Origin: Myxococcaceae bacterium
GTDB taxonomy: Bacteria > Myxococcota > Myxococcia > Myxococcales > Myxococcaceae
Direction of reading: 5' to 3'
Length of the DNA: 46,906 nucleotides
Assembly: GCA_019694595.1 (NCBI GenBank)
Contig: JAIBBQ010000026.1
Location: forward strand, 1-46,906
Part shown: one piece after another, positions 9,985 to 41,098 of the stretch
Layout of the letters: every line of letters starts with the position of its first letter
How positions within the stretch are numbered: position 1 is the first letter of the stretch
Notes under the pieces: generated by a model
Seen by the model: only the letters and a program-made list of their open reading frames with translations
Database searches by the model: none
What the model was told of the DNA's origin: nothing
Made by a program: the position numbers and the translations under genes

Positions 9985-11076
9985 TTGTGCGCGCCGTGCG
10001 TGGTACGGTCGCGCGCCTCAAAAAGCGAGTCGCACCTGGTTCGAGCCGCCCCGCCCCCATCGCCCTTCCGCCGGTTCGCCCTGGCCGCCATCGCGCCGCT
10101 CGCGGGAGCCGCGTACGCCTTCGCCTTCGAGCTCGCCTGGTTCGACGGCGTGGTGGAACGCGAGTCGAGCGCCATGGTGCTGCTGCGCCTGGTGACCGCG
10201 GCGGTCGCGGGCGGCGCGCTCTTCGCGATGGTGCGGCGCTGGCTGGGCCAGGCGTTGCTTCGCCTGCTGCGGGACCAGCCGTTCGAGCCGCAGGGTGTGC
10301 TGACGGTGCACGCGCTGGGGTACCTGCCGCTCCTGGGGCACGCGGTGCTGCTGTGGTTCTACGAGCTCGGGGCGGAGGCGACCTGGGCGGCGGGGCTCCT
10401 GATGGTGGCGGTGCACCTCGCCGGGGTGGTGCCGGCGCTGACGCCGGACCGGCGGCGCGGCTTCCTGGTGTCGCGCACCTGGCTCGCGGTGCTCTTCTTC
10501 CTCTCCGGGCTGGCGGCGCTCGTCTACCAGGTGACCTGGCAGCGCTCGCTCTTCACCGCGTTCGGCATCAACATCGAGTCCATCACCGTGGTGGTGACGC
10601 TGTTCATGCTCGGGCTGGGGCTGGGCTCGCTCCTGGGCGGGGCGCTGTCGCGGCGGGCGCCGGAACGCATTCCGTTCCTCTTCATGGCCTGCGAGGTGGC
10701 GATCGGCGCCTTCGGGGTGGTGAGCCTGCCGCTCATCCGCGCCACCGGGGCCTGGGCCGCGGGCTGGGGCACCGCGGGGACCATCGCCGCACTCTTCACC
10801 CTGCTCCTGCCGCCCACGATGCTCATGGGCGCGACCCTGCCCTTGCTCGTCGAGTACCTCGACGCCACCTGGCGCCACGTGGGCCGCACGGTGGGGATGC
10901 TGTACTTCGTCAACACGCTGGGCTCGGCGTGCGCGTGCTTCCTCACCGCCGACCTGCTCTTCGTCTTCAGCGGGCAGCAGCTCGCCGTGGTCTTCGCCGC
11001 GGCCTGCAACGTGACGGTGGGCGTGCTGGTCTACCGCTCGCTGCGCGGCGCCGCCGCTCCGGAGGCCGCGTCATGA
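9985..11076 (+). CDS. MFS-like membrane half of a spermidine-synthase-like system
   Basis: Up to 363 residues and about ten hydrophobic helices. The segment [48 protein letters not shown] (middle) and the later [16 protein letters not shown] are typical of the MFS-like N-terminal region of large bacterial spermidine-synthase-like proteins (G-x-x-A-L-x-Y-[QE]-V-x-W). It lacks the methyltransferase-like domain, which is in the next gene. That gene starts within this stop (ATGA overlap, 11073-11076), so the two products are coupled and probably form one complex. The start is uncertain: TTG 9985 and GTG 10000 are possible, but a -10-like TACGGT sits at 10004-10009, which would place the true start further down. 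Substrate unknown. Confidence 0.72.
10004..10009 (+). promoter_or_regulatory. Possible -10 element TACGGT
   Basis: TACGGT resembles the hexamers found 6-12 nt before other starts, but no ATG/GTG/TTG follows in frame at that distance. It either marks a short-leader transcript with an unusual start codon or is coincidental. Confidence 0.2.
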
Positions 11077-32645: not shown

Positions 32646-32658
32646 AGGCCTTCAGGGC
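32639..32658. terminator. Perfect 20-bp palindrome between convergent genes
   Basis: GCCCTGAAGGCCTTCAGGGC contains the TGA of the plus-strand lipoprotein gene and, on the other strand, the TGA of the minus-strand gene. It could act as a bidirectional terminator hairpin. Confidence 0.4.
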
Positions 32659-33644
32659 CCGAGCGCGCGCCCCCGCCGCGACGCCCTGCGCGCGGCGCTC
32701 AGCACCAGGCACGCGAGCACGACTGCCGCGGCGCCCGGTCCGCTGGCGCACCCGCCTTCGGCTTCCGCGAACCCGCTCACCCCGGTCGGCGCGGGCGCGC
32801 TCGTGCCGGGCATCGCGGGCCTCGGGCTGACGGCGGCGGCGTCAGCAGCAGGCTGGACCTCTCCCGTCGGGCCCGGCGGTGTCTCGGGCAGGCCCGCGTC
32901 GAGAGTCACCGCGGCGTCGGGCCATTCGACGGCGGCATCGGTCGCTCCCGGCACGCCGGCGTCGCGCGGCCCGGCATCGCGGCCTCCCGCGTCCGCCACC
33001 GCGGCATCGGCGACCGAGGCGTCAGCCGGCCCCGCGTCCAGCCGTGGGCTCCCGGCATCGAGGCCCGCATCGGGCGGGTCGACCGGCATCACGAAGGTGC
33101 CGCCCTTCTCGACGGCGATGATCTGCACCCGCATGGTGAGCGGGTAGTAGGCGGCGTAGCTCGGCTCGCCGATGAAGCCTTCGCCCAGGTCGAGCTTCTT
33201 CTCGTTGGAGTCGCGCTGGATGATGGAGATGGAGTCGAACCGCTTGGTCCAGTCGACGCTGCTGAACTGGTAGAACGACGGCACCGCCTGACTGAAGTGC
33301 ACGCGCCCCGGCGTGGTGAGGTTCGCGTAGCCCAGGCAGGTGTAGTTGCCCTGCAGGAAGCAGGCGGCGGTGAGCATCTTGGTGGCGGTCGGCTTGGCGA
33401 GCACGTCGATGACCACGTGGAAGGTGCCGTCGCGGTAGTCGACCGGGCTCACGTAGTTCGACGGTGAGAGCGTCGACGGCGCGAAGAAGGCGTGCGAGCC
33501 CTTGAGGCTGCTCGAGGCGCCGAAGGGCGCGTTGAACTTCGTGTTGTCCGAGGTCTGGGTGAAGGTGACGTCGAGCACCACTGCCTGGGCCGCCGACGCC
33601 GGCAGCGAGGCCACCAGGGACACCGCGAGGAAGGCAGCGCGCAT
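32652..33644 (-). CDS. Secreted hypothetical protein with Asp/Ala-rich linker and single-Cys MYXO-CTERM-like tail
   Basis: 330 residues from ATG 33644; signal peptide MRAAFLAVSLVASLPASAAQA. The N-terminal ~165-residue domain (VVLDVTFTQTSDNTKFNAPFGASSSLKGSHAFF...VDYRDGTFHVVIDVLAK...) looks like an all-beta secreted domain with two Cys and is not recognised. A DAG/DAA-rich linker (~185-290) follows, and the tail GGCASGPGAAAVVLACLVLSAARRASRRGR has one Cys, a hydrophobic helix and an Arg cluster, like MYXO-CTERM but with one Cys instead of C-x-C. The promoter region carries a sigma-54-like element (33658-33673), divergent from a similar one for the DUF1592 operon. Confidence 0.65.
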   Translation of the reverse strand: MRAAFLAVSLVASLPASAAQAVVLDVTFTQTSDNTKFNAPFGASSSLKGSHAFFAPSTLSPSNYVSPVDYRDGTFHVVIDVLAKPTATKMLTAACFLQGNYTCLGYANLTTPGRVHFSQAVPSFYQFSSVDWTKRFDSISIIQRDSNEKKLDLGEGFIGEPSYAAYYPLTMRVQIIAVEKGGTFVMPVDPPDAGLDAGSPRLDAGPADASVADAAVADAGGRDAGPRDAGVPGATDAAVEWPDAAVTLDAGLPETPPGPTGEVQPAADAAAVSPRPAMPGTSAPAPTGVSGFAEAEGGCASGPGAAAVVLACLVLSAARRASRRGRALGP

Positions 33645-33657
33645 GCGGCGCAGACGA

Positions 33658-33673
33658 AGCAAGGCGCACGCCG
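33658..33673 (-). promoter_or_regulatory. Sigma-54-like -24/-12 promoter for the secreted protein gene
   Basis: On the minus strand CGGCGTGCGCCTTGCT matches 14 of 16 positions of TGGCAYRN4TTGCW, with GG and GC separated by exactly 10 nt. It ends 13 nt before ATG 33644, placing the start of transcription a few bases before the start codon. Confidence 0.5.
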
Positions 33674-33677
33674 CGTG

Positions 33678-33700
33678 CAGCCACCGGCCGCAAGTGGCTG
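33678..33700. promoter_or_regulatory. Inverted repeat CAGCCAC-N9-GTGGCTG
   Basis: Perfect 7-bp arms lie directly upstream of the minus-strand sigma-54-like element and about 165-190 bp upstream of the plus-strand transcription start. It could be an activator site or a local operator. Confidence 0.3.
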
Positions 33701-33737
33701 ATCCACGCCGGGCGGACCACCTCTCGCCCCTCCACGC

Positions 33738-33757
33738 TCGTCGCATGGCCGCGACGA
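33738..33757. promoter_or_regulatory. Candidate shared enhancer: TCGTCGC-N6-GCGACGA
   Basis: Perfect 7-bp inverted arms lie roughly 90-110 bp from one predicted start and 110-130 bp from the other. This is the usual distance for a sigma-54 activator binding site serving divergent promoters. Confidence 0.4.
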
Positions 33758-33840
33758 AGGGCCGCGCCGCGTCGGCCAGTGCGCACCCGGGCCCCCTGAC
33801 GAACCCGTGTCGCTTCGCACCTTTGGCCCCTCAGGAGGCC

Positions 33841-33856
33841 CGGCGCAGCGCTTGCT
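33841..33856 (+). promoter_or_regulatory. Sigma-54-like -24/-12 promoter for the DUF1592-DUF1552 operon
   Basis: CGGCGCAGCGCTTGCT matches 14 of 16 positions of TGGCAYRN4TTGCW with the correct 10-nt GG-to-GC spacing. It ends 12 nt before ATG 33869. It shares CGGCGYR-N4-TTGCT with the divergent element. Confidence 0.5.
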
Positions 33857-33868
33857 CAACGAGCCCCC

Positions 33869-35683
33869 ATGCGGCGAATCATTCCAGGACTTCGAAGCGT
33901 CGTGCTGCTGCTCGCGGTCGCGGGGTGCGAAGGGGAGATCTTCTCCGTCCCCGCGGACCACACCGGGCCCCAGGCCGCGACGCCCCCGCCCAGCCAGCCC
34001 GTCTCGCCGACGATGCCGGGCATCCCGCCGCCGACGCCGACCCAGCCGTCGACCCCGTCGAACCCGACCAACCCCACTCAGCCGGCGGTCCCCAAGCAGA
34101 AGGTGTACGCCTGCGCCGCGAGCCAGGAAGCGCTGCGCGGCACCACCCACCGGCTGCGGCGGCTCACCCAGCTCGAGCTCTCGAACACCTTGAGCGCGCT
34201 GCTCGGCCCCACGGTGATGGCCGACGCCACCCTGCAGCAGAAGCTCGCCGGCTTGCCGGTCGACCAGACGGTGCTGCCGGGCGACTTCAACGAGGCCACC
34301 CCGGTCTCGCTGGGTCAGGTGCTCTTCGACGTCTCCAAGCGCGCCGTCACCCTGGCGATGGCGGACGCCACCTGGAAGACGCAGCACCTCGGCGCGTGCG
34401 CCGCGCAGGCCACCATCTCCGACACCTGCGTCGCCTCCGCGCTGCGGAGCTTCGGGGCCCAGGTCTGGCGCCGCGACCTCACCGACGCCGAGGTACAGCT
34501 GCTCACCGCGCAGGCGAGCCAGGCCGGCGGCGGCGCCCAGGGCCTCACCTTCGCGCTGCGGCGGCTCTTCCAGTCGCCGGCGCTCGTCTTCCACCTCGAG
34601 GTCGGCGGCACGCCCGGCACCGACGGGCGCGTGCGGCTCACCGACTTCGAGGTGGCCTCGCGGCTGTCCTACCTCGCGGCGGGCGTGCCTCCCGACGACG
34701 CGCTGATGGCCGCCGCCCGCGCGGGGCAGCTGTCGACCGCCGCGCAGCTCGCGCCCCACGCGCGCCGCTTGCTCGCCACGCCGCAGGGCCAGGCCAAGGT
34801 GAAGGACTTCTTCCGCTACTACACCGCGCTGAGCCTGGTGCCCGACCCTTCGCCCACCGCCGCGGCGCTGCTGGGGCTGAGCTCCACCAGCGGGCTCGGC
34901 GTGCAGATGCGCACCGAGGCCTTCGACTTCATCGACGCGGTCTACAGGTCGCAGGGCGGCTTCGCCGAGCTGATGGGCTCCACCGCGGCGTTCCCGCGCT
35001 CCTCCGAGCTCGCCAAGGTGCTCGAGACCACCATCGCCCCCGCCGGCGGCGCCTCGGCGTCGGCGAGCCACCCGGGCCTGATGCACCGCCCCGCGCTGCT
35101 GATGTCCACCGGCCCGCGCACCAGCCCCATCGTGCGCGGCGCGCACCTGCGCAAGCTCTTCCTCTGCGACTCCTTCGGGCTCCCCGACCCGGCGCTGGTG
35201 AAGGCGCGGCAGGAGCAGGTCGGCGACGTGGAGAACATGCCCAACCGCGACAAGGTGGCGACCCTCACCTCGTCGACCACCTGCAACGGCTGCCACTCGC
35301 AGGTGAACCCGGTGGGCTTCGCCTTCGAGGGCTTCGACCAGCTCGGCGCGCGCCGCACGGTGGAGACGGTGCCCGACCCGGCCGGCGGTGCGCCGAAGAC
35401 CTGGCCCATCGTGACCAAGGTGGACAACGTCACCCTGGAGCCGGGCGGCCCGGGCAGCCTCGCCGACTCGCTGGCGCTCGCGCAGGCGATGACCGAGAGC
35501 TTCAAGGGGCGCGCCTGCTTCGCCCGCCGCGCCTTCGAGTACTTCCAGCTCGCCACCGTCGACGCCACCAAGGACGGCTGCGCCCTGTCCGGCGCGGAGA
35601 ACCAGGCGCACGTCGGCTCGCTGGAAGCCGTGGTGGTCGCCACCCTCGCCAACGACGACGTCTTCTACCGGAGCGCACCGTGA
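33869..35683 (+). CDS. DUF1592/DUF1588-family lipoprotein with CxxCH motif
   Basis: 604 residues. Lipoprotein signal RRIIPGLRSVVLLLAVAGC, then a Pro/Thr/Ser-rich linker (~25-75). The core resembles the DUF1587/1592/1588 series known from planctomycetes and myxobacteria: THRLRRLTQLELSNTLSALLG, GFGAQVWRRDLTDAEVQLL-like (RSFGAQVWRRDLTDAEV), LRRLFQSPALVFHLEVG, LTDFEVASRLSYLAAGVPPDDALM, HPGLMHRPALLMS...TSPIVRGAHLRKLFLC, and TTCNGCHSQVNPVGFAFEGFDQLGARR. CNGCH (Cys472-His476) is a c-type heme-binding signature. The function of these families is not established. The stop overlaps the GTG of the DUF1552 gene (GTGA), so both are co-translated; a sigma-54-like promoter precedes it. Confidence 0.82.
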   Translation: MRRIIPGLRSVVLLLAVAGCEGEIFSVPADHTGPQAATPPPSQPVSPTMPGIPPPTPTQPSTPSNPTNPTQPAVPKQKVYACAASQEALRGTTHRLRRLTQLELSNTLSALLGPTVMADATLQQKLAGLPVDQTVLPGDFNEATPVSLGQVLFDVSKRAVTLAMADATWKTQHLGACAAQATISDTCVASALRSFGAQVWRRDLTDAEVQLLTAQASQAGGGAQGLTFALRRLFQSPALVFHLEVGGTPGTDGRVRLTDFEVASRLSYLAAGVPPDDALMAAARAGQLSTAAQLAPHARRLLATPQGQAKVKDFFRYYTALSLVPDPSPTAAALLGLSSTSGLGVQMRTEAFDFIDAVYRSQGGFAELMGSTAAFPRSSELAKVLETTIAPAGGASASASHPGLMHRPALLMSTGPRTSPIVRGAHLRKLFLCDSFGLPDPALVKARQEQVGDVENMPNRDKVATLTSSTTCNGCHSQVNPVGFAFEGFDQLGARRTVETVPDPAGGAPKTWPIVTKVDNVTLEPGGPGSLADSLALAQAMTESFKGRACFARRAFEYFQLATVDATKDGCALSGAENQAHVGSLEAVVVATLANDDVFYRSAP

Positions 35684-37140
35684 CCATCTTCCTTCGCCGT
35701 CGGTTGTTCCTGCAGGGCGCGGGCGCGAGCCTGGTGCTGCCGCTGTTGCCGTCGCTCCTGCCTCGCACCGCCCAGGCCCAGACCGCGCGGCCGGTGCGCT
35801 ACGTGCAGGTGATGAACGTGTACGGCCCCAACGAGCGCACGTTCTTCGGCTCGCGCAGCACCAGCATGCGGCCGATGCCCAACGTGAACGTGAAGCCGCT
35901 GTCGGAGATCGCCGGCGACTTCTCGCCCATCATCGGCGCCGCCTTCAACCCGCTCAAGGCCAAGTTCTCGGTGCTGCGCGGCATCGACACGCTCATCGCC
36001 AACCCCAACCACCACAGCTGCTTCGCCACCTGCGCGTCGAGCTACGCGGGCGGCCTCGACGGCGACAACTACCCGCCGGTGTCGGGCCAGGAGTCCATCG
36101 ACGTGCTGCTGTCGAAGTCGGCCAAGGTCTACGGCGCGTCGACCCCGCTGGCGCGCCGGCTGGTGAGCCTGAACCCCGTCACCAACGACGACTACAGCGA
36201 CGGGCGCAGCTTCTCGTTCCAGCGAAACGGCAACAACCTGCAGATGGTCTCGCCGCTGCGGCAGACGCAGGCGCTCTTCGACGCCTTCTCCTCGGGCTTC
36301 GGCATGAGCACCACCACCACCGACACCCGCGAGGTGGACCTGATGCAGGCGGTGTACGGCGACTACGTGCGCACCCGCGACAGCGCGCGCATCTCCGCCG
36401 CCGACAAGCAGAAGCTCGAGGCGTACATGGCGCTGGTGAACGACGTCGCCAAGTCGGTGCAGCCCACCACCAGCACCACCACCACCTGCGCCGCGCCCAC
36501 GCGCGCCACCGAGAGCGACGTGGAAGCGGCCATCACCAACCAGTTCAAGATCCTCGCCGCGGCCATGGCCTGCGACCTCACCCGGGTGGCCAGCGTCACC
36601 CTGGGCATGTCGCAGGGCTACGGCGCGCGGCACACCGAGCACCACGCGGTGGGCGCGCAGGACGGCATCAACAACCCGTCGGGGCTGGTGCAGGACCTCA
36701 AGGCCATCGGCAACCGGGTGGCCCGGCTCATCTCCATCTTCGACAGCGTCGCCGACGGCAGCGGCACGCTGCTCGACAACTCCATCATCTACTGGAGCCA
36801 GCAGTACGGCATCGTGAAGCCGAGCGGCGAGCACGAGCCCGACAACATGCCGGTGGTGGTGGCGGGCAAGGCGGGCGGCGCGCTGCGCCAGGGCAACTAC
36901 ATCGACTTCCGAAACGAGGGCTCGTCGGGCGAGAGCCGCGGCCTGCCGATGAACAACCTGCTGGTGACCTTCATGAACTGCATGGGGCTGTCGTCGAGCG
37001 ACTACGAGAAGACCGCCGGCCAGGGCTACGGCTACTACAACGGCAACTTCCAGGACCGGCCGGGCGGCACCACCTGGAGCGCGACCGCGGGCCGCCGCAG
37101 CGCGCTGCCCTGGTTCTACGCCGGCGCATCTTTGGGGTAG
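35680..37140 (+). CDS. DUF1552-family secreted protein with Tat-like signal
   Basis: 486 residues from GTG 35680, overlapping the DUF1592 stop. The N-terminus FLRRRLFLQGAGASLVLPLLPSLLPRTAQA has a twin-arginine-like RRRLFLQG motif and hydrophobic stretch. The body matches DUF1552, a sulfatase/alkaline-phosphatase-like family: VMNVYGPNERTFFG, KFSVLRGIDTLIANPNHHSC (His-rich), SGQESIDVLLS, MACDLTRVASVTLGM, HTEHHAV, NSIIYWSQQYG...EHEPDNMPVVVAGKAGGAL and RGLPMNNLLVTFMNCMGL. DUF1552 and DUF1592/1588 genes regularly occur as a pair, as here. A folded, cofactor-containing export product is suggested by the Tat signal. Biochemical role unknown. Confidence 0.83.
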   Translation: MTIFLRRRLFLQGAGASLVLPLLPSLLPRTAQAQTARPVRYVQVMNVYGPNERTFFGSRSTSMRPMPNVNVKPLSEIAGDFSPIIGAAFNPLKAKFSVLRGIDTLIANPNHHSCFATCASSYAGGLDGDNYPPVSGQESIDVLLSKSAKVYGASTPLARRLVSLNPVTNDDYSDGRSFSFQRNGNNLQMVSPLRQTQALFDAFSSGFGMSTTTTDTREVDLMQAVYGDYVRTRDSARISAADKQKLEAYMALVNDVAKSVQPTTSTTTTCAAPTRATESDVEAAITNQFKILAAAMACDLTRVASVTLGMSQGYGARHTEHHAVGAQDGINNPSGLVQDLKAIGNRVARLISIFDSVADGSGTLLDNSIIYWSQQYGIVKPSGEHEPDNMPVVVAGKAGGALRQGNYIDFRNEGSSGESRGLPMNNLLVTFMNCMGLSSSDYEKTAGQGYGYYNGNFQDRPGGTTWSATAGRRSALPWFYAGASLG

Positions 37141-37156: not shown

Positions 37157-37162
37157 TAGAGT
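37157..37162 (+). promoter_or_regulatory. Candidate -10 element TAGAGT
   Basis: TAGAGT ends 9 nt before ATG 37172 in the 31-bp gap after the DUF1552 gene; leaderless spacing. Confidence 0.4.
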
Positions 37163-37171
37163 GACTCCCCG

Positions 37172-38023
37172 ATGGTGCTCGTCCTCGCGTGGGCCGCGCT
37201 CGCGGCCGCCAACCCGTACCTCGAGCAAGGCCGGGCCGACTTCAAGGCGCTGGAGTTCGAGCGCTCGCTCGGCCCCCTGGGCCTCGCCACCGAGGTGAAG
37301 GAGCAGACCAGCGCCGAGCGCCACGAGAGCTACGACCTGCTCGCGCAGTCGCTGCTCGCGCTCGGGCGCACCCGCGAGGCCGAGGAGACCTACCAGCGGC
37401 TGCTCGCCCAGGAGCCGATGGCCCCGGAACCCAGGGCCTCGCCCAAGGTCGCCGCCGCCTTCCTCGCCGCCAAGGAGCGGCTGTACCCCCGGCCGTCGGT
37501 GACGCTGCGGCGCCAGCCCGCGCCGCCCGAGCGGCTCCTCGTCGAGGTGCGCGACCCGTGGGCGATGGTGCACCACCTCATCGTGCGCTCGGGAGAGCAG
37601 GAGCAGCGGCTCCCCGCGCCGGCGGATCACCTGCTCAACACCGCGCTCCCCGAAGGCGCCACCGCGCTGGTGGCGCTCAGCCAGAAGGAAGCGCTGCTCG
37701 CCGAGCTGACGCTCGACGCGGCCGCCGGGGTGGCCGGGCGCGCCACCGGCCTCACGCCGGCGGGCGAGGTGCGTGCGGCCCCGTCCCACCGGCTCCCCTG
37801 GCTCAAGTGGGTGCTGGGCGCGGTCGCCGTGGGCGCTGCCGCGGCCGCGGGGCTCTTGCTCTTCGATGCCTTCCTGCCCCGGCCGGTTCCTCCCGGCATC
37901 ACCGCGCGCAGCGCCACCCTGGCCAACGCCGACGCCCGCGCCAAGGCCGCCGCCGGCTGGTCCTTCCTCGGTCTCACCGGCGCGGCCGCCGTCGGCACGC
38001 TGGTGGTTGCAAACCTGGACTGA
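37172..38023 (+). CDS. Periplasmic TPR-like protein with two C-terminal membrane helices
   Basis: 283 residues; short signal sequence (MVLVLAWAALAAA). Residues ~15-95 resemble a TPR pair (NPYLEQGRADFKALEFERSLGPLGLATEVKEQTSAERHESYDLLAQSLLALGRTREAEETYQRLLAQEP). A beta-rich middle domain follows (~110-190), then two hydrophobic helices, ~213-232 and ~265-280. This layout (TPR, Ig-like domain, two helices) is frequent in myxobacterial genes beside Ser/Thr kinases. The kinase gene follows after 49 bp on the same strand with its own candidate promoter. Confidence 0.6.
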   Translation: MVLVLAWAALAAANPYLEQGRADFKALEFERSLGPLGLATEVKEQTSAERHESYDLLAQSLLALGRTREAEETYQRLLAQEPMAPEPRASPKVAAAFLAAKERLYPRPSVTLRRQPAPPERLLVEVRDPWAMVHHLIVRSGEQEQRLPAPADHLLNTALPEGATALVALSQKEALLAELTLDAAAGVAGRATGLTPAGEVRAAPSHRLPWLKWVLGAVAVGAAAAAGLLLFDAFLPRPVPPGITARSATLANADARAKAAAGWSFLGLTGAAAVGTLVVANLD

Positions 38024-38072: not shown

Positions 38073-39850
38073 GTGCAGGGCACCCCCTTCGGCCGCTTCC
38101 AGCTCTACGAGCGCCTCGCCGTGGGGGGCATGGGCGAGGTGTTCGTCGCGGTGCAGACGGGCATGGGCGAGTTCCGCAAACCGCTCGCGCTCAAGCTGCT
38201 GCTGCCCGACCTCACCAACGACCCCGAGCACGTGCGGCTGTTCCTGTCGGAGGCCCGCCTCGCGGCGCGGCTGCAGCACCCGAACGTGGTGCAGGTCTTC
38301 GACGCCGGCGAGGTCGACGGCCGCTACTTCCTCACCATGGAGCTCATCGACGGCGTCTCGCTGTCGACGCTCATCGACCACCTCGTTCACACCCAGCAGC
38401 AGGTGTCTGCGGAGGTGCTGGCCCACGTCGCCCGGCAGGCGCTCGAAGGCCTGCACTCCGCGCACACCGCCCGCGGCGAAGACGGCAAGAGCCTCGAGCT
38501 GGTGCACCGCGACGTCTCGCCGAGCAACATCCTCATCTCGCGGCGCGGCGAGGTGAAGCTCGCCGACTTCGGCATCGCCACCGCACGCGGCGCCGACACC
38601 CAGGTGGGCACGCTGCGCGGCAAGCTGGAGTACCTCGCCCCGGAGCTCTTCCAGGGCGCGCGGGCCACCGCGTCGACCGACCTCTACGCGCTCGGCGTGA
38701 CGCTCCACCGCTTCGCGACCCTGCGCTCGCCGTTCGTCGGCGACAGTCTGCTGGGCCCGAAGCGGGAGCTCGGCCCCGGTCTCGCCGCGTTGCGCCCCGA
38801 CCTCGGGGAGCTGGCCACCGCGGTGACCCGCGCCTTCGCGGCGGCTGCGAGCGAGCGCTTCGCGAGCGCGGCGGAGATGCGCGAGGCGATTCCCCGCGGC
38901 GACTTCGAAGCCCGCCAGGAAGCGCTGCGGGCCCTGGTGGAGGCCGCCGAGCAGTCCGTCGGCCGGGCCTCCGCACCGTCCACCCCGCGGCCGCCGACCC
39001 TGGACATCGACGCGCCTGCGCCCACCGAGGCGGTGGCCCACGTCTTCGCCCCCGAGCCCAAGACCCAGCTCACGAAGATGGAACCGCCGCCCGGGGCGAC
39101 GCTTCCCGCCACGACGCTGCCGGGGGCGACGCTTCCCGGTGCGACCCTGCCCGGCGCGACGCTCTCGCCTGCGGCCGACTCGCTCGGCTTCGACTCGCTC
39201 AGCTCCGAGTCGTTCGACTTCGAGCCGCGGGGCTCGAGCCCGCAAGGCGCCGGCTCGCTCGACGACGCACCGGTCACCGAGCCAGGCCACCAGCGGCGGG
39301 CGCCGCTCGCCACGGTGGCGCTGGCGCTGGTGCTCGCCGCGGTCACCTGGTGGGCCCTGCGCAGCCCGGCGCCCACGACGCCCGACGTCGTCGAGGTCCC
39401 GATCGTCGCCTCGCCCACGCCGAGCCCGCGCCGGGAGGCCGCACCGCAGCCCTCGCCCGCTCCTGCGCCGACGCCCGAGTTCGTGCCGACGCCGGTGGCG
39501 CCCGAGAGCGCCCACCCGGCGCCGGCGCCCGAGGAGCCGGCCCCCGTCGCCCCGCCCCGGCCGGTTCACCCTGCACCGCGGCCCCGGCCCAGGCCTCCCG
39601 AGGTGAAGGTCGCGCGCAGCGAGGCGCCCGCCAAGCTCGACTCGCCCGCCCGGCTCACCGTGCAGGCCGAGCCATGGGCCAACGTGGAGATCGACGGCCG
39701 CGTCGTGGGGCAGACGCCGATGGCCGACTTCCCCATCGAGCGGTCGCGCATCGTGGTGCGGCTGCTCAACCCGGGGTTCCGCACGATGCAGCTGACGCTG
39801 GAGCTCAAACCTGGTGAGACGGTGAAGCTGATGAAGACCCTGGTGCCCCG

Positions 39851-39854
<4 letters not shown>
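38073..39854 (+). CDS. Membrane-spanning Ser/Thr protein kinase with extracytoplasmic PEGA domain
   Basis: 593 residues. Kinase domain ~8-270: Gly loop LAVGGMGEVF (~15-24), ATP-binding Lys in LALKLL (~41), HRDVSPSN (His ~144), DFG (~165-167) and APE (~189). All catalytic residues are present, so it should be active. A Pro/Thr/Ser linker with five PGATL-type repeats follows, then one membrane helix near 409-430, a Pro-rich stretch, and a C-terminal PEGA domain (~523-593: RLTVQAEPWANVEIDGRVVGQTPM...VRLLNPGFRTMQLTLELKPGETVKL). It can sense the periplasm or envelope through PEGA and phosphorylate cytoplasmic targets. The FHA sigma-54 activator gene overlaps its stop (ATGA) and is the obvious partner. 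Confidence 0.93.
39090..39167 (+). repeat. 15-bp tandem repeats encoding PGATL
   Basis: Five near-identical units (ggcgcgacgctgccc type) encode PGATLPATTLPGATLPGATL-like sequence in the linker between the kinase domain and the membrane helix. The Thr-rich repeats could be autophosphorylation sites read by an FHA domain. Confidence 0.6.

Positions 39855-41098
<1,244 letters not shown>

Follow-up and report, generated by a model that had tools for sequence, protein, structure and literature searches.

What drives the two divergent genes on either side of positions 33645-33868? This 224-bp region belongs to the stretch of DNA analysed here (46,906 nt from a Myxococcaceae bacterium, contig JAIBBQ010000026.1; hereafter the window) and separates a gene for a secreted protein from a DUF1592-DUF1552 operon. 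A sequence-only reading had proposed back-to-back sigma-54-like promoters in it, with a central inverted repeat as enhancer and an activator encoded nearby. Sigma-54 promoters are a tightly switched, activator-dependent class, and a start codon 12-13 nt after the -12 element, as found at both genes here, is odd for them and normally counts against such a promoter. We find the proposed interpretation supported, partly on better grounds than those first given, and understated: that reading overlooked that the start-codon spacing implies near-leaderless transcripts and that the two sites belong to a class with the same geometry across the genome and the order.

Two divergent elements in one intergenic region

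Both 16-mers lie where they had been placed. The element ahead of the operon, CGGCGCAGCGCTTGCT, occupies 33841-33856 on the plus strand, and that ahead of the secreted-protein gene, CGGCGTGCGCCTTGCT, occupies 33658-33673 on the minus strand. Each reads GG-N8-TTGC followed by T, has the sigma-54 core of GG at -24 and GC at -12 with ten bases between, and scores 12.1 on a sigma-54 matrix whose weights are approximate and serve for ranking only. The published consensus used for Myxococcus (PMC7910581) is TGGCACG-N4-TTGC(T/A). Both -24 boxes are imperfect, with CGGCG instead of TGGCA, and the 14/16 consensus match credited to each site is right as a total but includes four N, leaving 10/12 informative positions. 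As had been reported, 12 nt separate the end of the plus element (-12 C at 33855) from the ATG at 33869, and 13 nt separate the minus element from the ATG at 33644 on the minus strand. With the -12 C as reference, promoter geometry predicts transcription starts at ~33867 (plus) and ~33647 (minus). The upstream stretches of both genes lack TANNNT, which bears out the earlier claim; Shine-Dalgarno-like GGAG, GAGG or AGGA is absent upstream of both ATGs, and we found no sigma-70 promoter-like site in 33500-34000. The region also has another perfect inverted repeat, CAGCCAC-N9-GTGGCTG, at 33678-33700, close upstream of the -24 element on the minus strand.

The secreted protein (32652-33644, minus strand; signal peptide MRAAFLAVSLVASLPASAAQA) matches no Pfam or NCBIfam family. 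On the plus strand, the operon begins with a DUF1592/DUF1588/DUF1595 lipoprotein (MRRIIPGLRSVVLLLAVAGC...; 33869-35683; Pfam PF07631 and PF07627, with PF07637 just under the cut-off), one of 22 DUF1592 family members in the sampled contigs, and continues with a DUF1552 (HXXSHH) protein (35680-37140, plus strand; PF07586) whose GTG start overlaps the DUF1592 stop codon. On contig C275, DUF1592-DUF1552 is followed by a paralogue of the secreted protein (g617, E 5e-24). The putative divergent promoter thus seems to keep together a pair that shares an operon elsewhere.

Our statistics draw on 1.34 Mb of the genome taken as stretches, a sample picked partly around DUF1592 and activator loci and called with a home-made gene caller, together with pattern searches of the whole genome (7.28 Mb). 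Counting consensus matches alone proved uninformative, as the window holds 5 where 12.3 are expected; by count such matches are not rare, so the earlier reading's own caveat, that such scores might be frequent in random sequence, applies by half. But when the 224-bp region was shuffled 4,000 times with dinucleotides preserved, a score of at least 12.1 arose 0.016 times per shuffle, and on both strands in 0/4,000. Among 172 divergent gene pairs in the 1.34 Mb, only the one around 33645-33868 carries suitably spaced sites of this kind ahead of both genes. The window has just one other high-scoring site that was called intergenic, 10244-10259; it appears to fall inside a coding frame whose start the gene caller set too late, and we rejected it; the claim that no other intergenic region here carries such an element thus holds as far as tested.

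The best explanation overall, and in our judgement a probable one, is an enhancer-driven divergent sigma-54 pair giving near-leaderless mRNAs for the secreted protein and the DUF1592 lipoprotein operon. Sigma-54 polymerase would bind each GG-N10-GC element and then wait, until DNA looping brings an AAA+ activator from the common dyad (33738-33757) to either promoter, which it opens. With 12-13 nt between the -12 elements and the ATG, transcription from both promoters would start 2-3 nt before it; both mRNAs would then be near-leaderless, which we likewise think probable, and would be translated without a Shine-Dalgarno site. The candidate activator is the FHA-type protein encoded at 39851-41098, which a neighbouring Ser/Thr kinase may switch through phospho-threonine binding, and the outcome would be joint expression of the secreted protein and the DUF1592-DUF1552 operon.

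The inverted repeat and the candidate activator

The dyad TCGTCGC-N6-GCGACGA (33738-33757) is the proposed upstream activating site common to both promoters. Its centre lies 107 bp from the plus -12 C and 88 bp from the minus -12 C, or about 119 and 100 bp from the predicted plus and minus starts, in agreement with the roughly 100 bp claimed for both. We rejected the significance of the dyad by itself, since some inverted repeat of this kind (7-7, gap 0-12) is present in 56% of intergenic regions of at least 150 bp, and the 224-bp region itself has another at 33678-33700. What speaks for it is recurrence near other sigma-54 sites. The 7.28 Mb contain one other exact copy, on contig C357, whose centre lies 106 bp upstream of the -12 at a leaderless sigma-54 site preceding a gene for an esterase-like lipoprotein. 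On C324, a copy with one mismatch has its centre 107 bp upstream of the -12 at a strong sigma-54 site; this site has an ordinary 38-nt leader and precedes the gene for another lipoprotein. The distances at the three loci are therefore 107 (window plus promoter), 106 and 107 bp. The combined pattern of dyad and promoter occurs at 3 loci in this genome and gives 6 matches in 59 others; the window had suggested the motif before the test, which leaves just the two other loci to count in its favour. It is reasonably likely, judging from this spacing, that the dyad serves as an activator site.

Downstream of the DUF1592-DUF1552 genes lies a kinase/activator operon on the same strand. It opens with a TPR-like protein (37172-38023; a weak TPR match below the Pfam cut-off), followed by a Ser/Thr protein kinase with a PEGA domain (38073-39854; PF00069, PF08308) and by the FHA-AAA+-HTH sigma-54 activator (39851-41098; PF00498, PF00158, PF02954). 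The identity given earlier to this last protein stands, as it has all the features of an FHA-type activator, namely FHA, AAA+ with a GAFTGA motif and a Fis-type HTH. We discarded its position 6 kb away as proof, because Sigma54_activat has 60 matches at threshold in the 7.28 Mb, about 50 of them full-length, which makes one activator within 6 kb weak evidence. Stronger evidence comes from the recurrence of FHA-type activators at DUF1592-DUF1552 loci: they adjoin 5/22, several of the other loci being cut by contig ends, and 4 of the 5 also have a kinase. The closest paralogues of the window kinase, g740 and g626, are also beside DUF1592 operons, and a relative of the TPR-like protein, g682, lies on C357 near another DUF1592 locus. 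The 22 paralogous DUF1592-DUF1552 operons include ones on C46, C275, C7, C161, C122, C168, C357 and the window, several of them beside kinase, FHA-activator or TPR-like genes. On whether the 39851-41098 protein is the activator for the dyad, the sequence leaves us evenly divided.

It is quite possible, though we lean slightly away from it, that a different one of the ~50 activators acts in trans on a regulon containing the dyad and its promoters and that the FHA neighbour controls something else, a reading that keeps the promoters and differs only in the activator. It would account for the finding that, in the stretches read, no activator adjoins the dyad-bearing promoters on C357 and C324, and for the fact that the genome holds only two exact copies of the dyad, which means that it is missing from the other DUF1592 loci with FHA activators. 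Against it are the TPR-like, kinase and FHA-activator genes directly downstream of the operon and the presence of the same kinds of gene beside paralogous operons. Under either activator, the divergent sigma-54 promoters themselves would stand.

Sigma-54-type sites next to start codons

The short distance to the start codon turned out to be a property of a class. In 672 genes with upstream gaps, 24 TTGC end 12-16 nt before the called start, and 15 of these have GG at N8 before them, compared with 0-6 for GG at other spacings. In the 1.34 Mb, 21 start codons have a site scoring at least 9 that ends 11-15 nt before them, vs 0.68 expected from the background 60-133 nt before starts; a second, broad group of such sites lies about 22-60 nt before starts, like ordinary sigma-54 promoters. 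Whole-genome pattern searches, which are independent of gene calling, gave the same picture: with the correct spacing, ATG mostly follows TTGCT by 10-15 nt, and with the elements set one base further apart there is no comparable ATG peak. The genome has one sigma-54 gene (RpoN), which carries a canonical ARRTVAKYRE box.

Members of the class mostly encode exported proteins. A signal-peptide-like start is found in 24/31 members vs 434/1,061 other genes (P 6e-5), and a lipobox in 14/31 vs 120/1,061 (P 4e-6). In class members the codon 11-15 nt after the element is also the first of the signal peptide, which makes the start codons credible. In the sampled contigs, 8/22 DUF1592 genes have the class geometry vs 32/1,088 other genes (P 3e-7). 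Shine-Dalgarno sites occur in 5 of the 31 members and in 282 of 1,061 other genes, a depletion in the right direction that is not significant (P 0.22).

This last figure could be taken to favour a reading in which the sigma-54 promoters are real and the true start codons lie further downstream, giving ordinary leaders with ribosome sites, as could the gene caller's choice of GTG 33902 for DUF1592. That GTG, however, would trim the signal peptide to MLLLAVAGC, which lacks a positive N-region, whereas across the class the codon 11-15 nt after the element opens a complete signal peptide, and the sharp distance peak also appears in searches that use no gene calls; we consider downstream starts unlikely. 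Less likely still is that the two sites match by chance, the genome being 71.6% G+C, and that another sigma factor drives both genes: the scarcity of consensus matches in the window relative to shuffles and the commonness of inverted repeats would fit this, but position, double occurrence, the spacing control, class enrichment and dyad recurrence, together with the negative search for a sigma-70 promoter-like site in 33500-34000, all argue against it. Both elements are very probably functional sigma-54 promoters, and near-leaderless transcription from them remains the reading that we prefer.

TANNNT hexamers peak 6-12 nt before called starts in the 672 upstream regions of this genome. Near-leaderless genes may therefore form a second class here, of sigma-70 type; in the window, TAGAGT at 37157-37162, which ends 9 nt before the ATG of the TPR-like gene, is an example of the peak.

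Conservation and comparison with known systems

Conservation in related genomes, which the sequence-only reading had put forward as a check, is divided. The closest relative of the window DUF1592 gene is in genome G005 (47-51% identity over two segments), and there GG-N8-TTGC is kept, 15 nt before the ATG. The G005 relative of the secreted-protein gene has no -24/-12 element, and the two relatives are on separate contigs; the divergent arrangement was found only in the window genome. On the G005 contig with the secreted protein's relative (C198; L106 about 2660-2690), TACCGT lies 7 nt before the GTG, as though one promoter class had replaced the other. Across other genera, 5/28 DUF1592 loci have the class geometry, that of the G005 relative included. 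Among named genomes, a search for closely related DUF1592 genes gave one distant match only.

The window promoters resemble canonical RpoN promoters with an upstream activating site (NtrC, NifA, Nla28 type) in their GG-N10-GC core, TTGC at -12, dyad about 100 bp upstream, GAFTGA AAA+ activators and single RpoN in the genome. They differ in that only 12-16 nt separate the -12 element from the start codon in this class, too few for the mRNA to include a Shine-Dalgarno site, and in that the window has one dyad between two divergent promoters. FHA-domain enhancer-binding proteins paired with Ser/Thr kinases are known from myxobacteria (M. xanthus), and the FHA-AAA+-HTH architecture beside a Ser/Thr kinase in the window is like them. 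Among the papers searched, we found no recurring link of such proteins to DUF1592-DUF1552 operons. Leaderless mRNAs with a -10 hexamer next to the start codon are described for Deinococcus-Thermus (PMC12340547), and leaderless starts for Sinorhizobium meliloti (PMC3616915). As at those -10-hexamer promoters, the core promoter here would set the start at or just before the start codon, and this genome has the TANNNT peak as well; unlike theirs, the core element in the window belongs to the activator-dependent sigma-54 class.

Extent across the order

We searched 60 genomes of the order for TGGCAC-N5-TTGCT-N5-34-ATG. Among the matches listed, 70/150 have 12-16 nt to the ATG, with a peak at 13 nt (28 of the 150), and those at 12-16 nt come from 35 of the 46 genomes with listed matches. 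Outside the order, in matches from elsewhere in the phylum and mostly from one family, there is no such peak: 30/150 among the matches listed vs 25 expected if flat. The difference between the two sets of listed matches (P about 1e-6) is strong and not exact, owing to repeated near relatives and differences in base composition.

We think it somewhat probable, on these genomic patterns, that across the order sigma-54 drives a standing near-leaderless class, chiefly of exported lipoproteins, one branch of which would be a kinase/FHA-activator regulon of DUF1592-DUF1552 operons that includes the window pair. This recurring layout seems undescribed: the openly available abstracts and passages covered on leaderless mRNAs with sigma-54/RpoN or Myxococcus contain no description of it. 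If the reading is true, a large share of one order's sigma-54 promoters would make near-leaderless mRNAs, joining two fields that are usually separate, and sigma-54 targets could be found by a simple start-codon-anchored rule where sigma-54 is vital, as it is in M. xanthus (cited in PMC12316311). It would also give a first regulatory handle on DUF1592/DUF1552 proteins, on which our literature search found almost nothing.

Sigma-54 sites about 29-31 nt before an ATG were seen in G003, G007, G011, G014, G015, G027, G028 and G029; the leader at these sites is conserved (CTTGCTCAAT...GACGCGTGATG), and they apparently belong to one orthologous gene.
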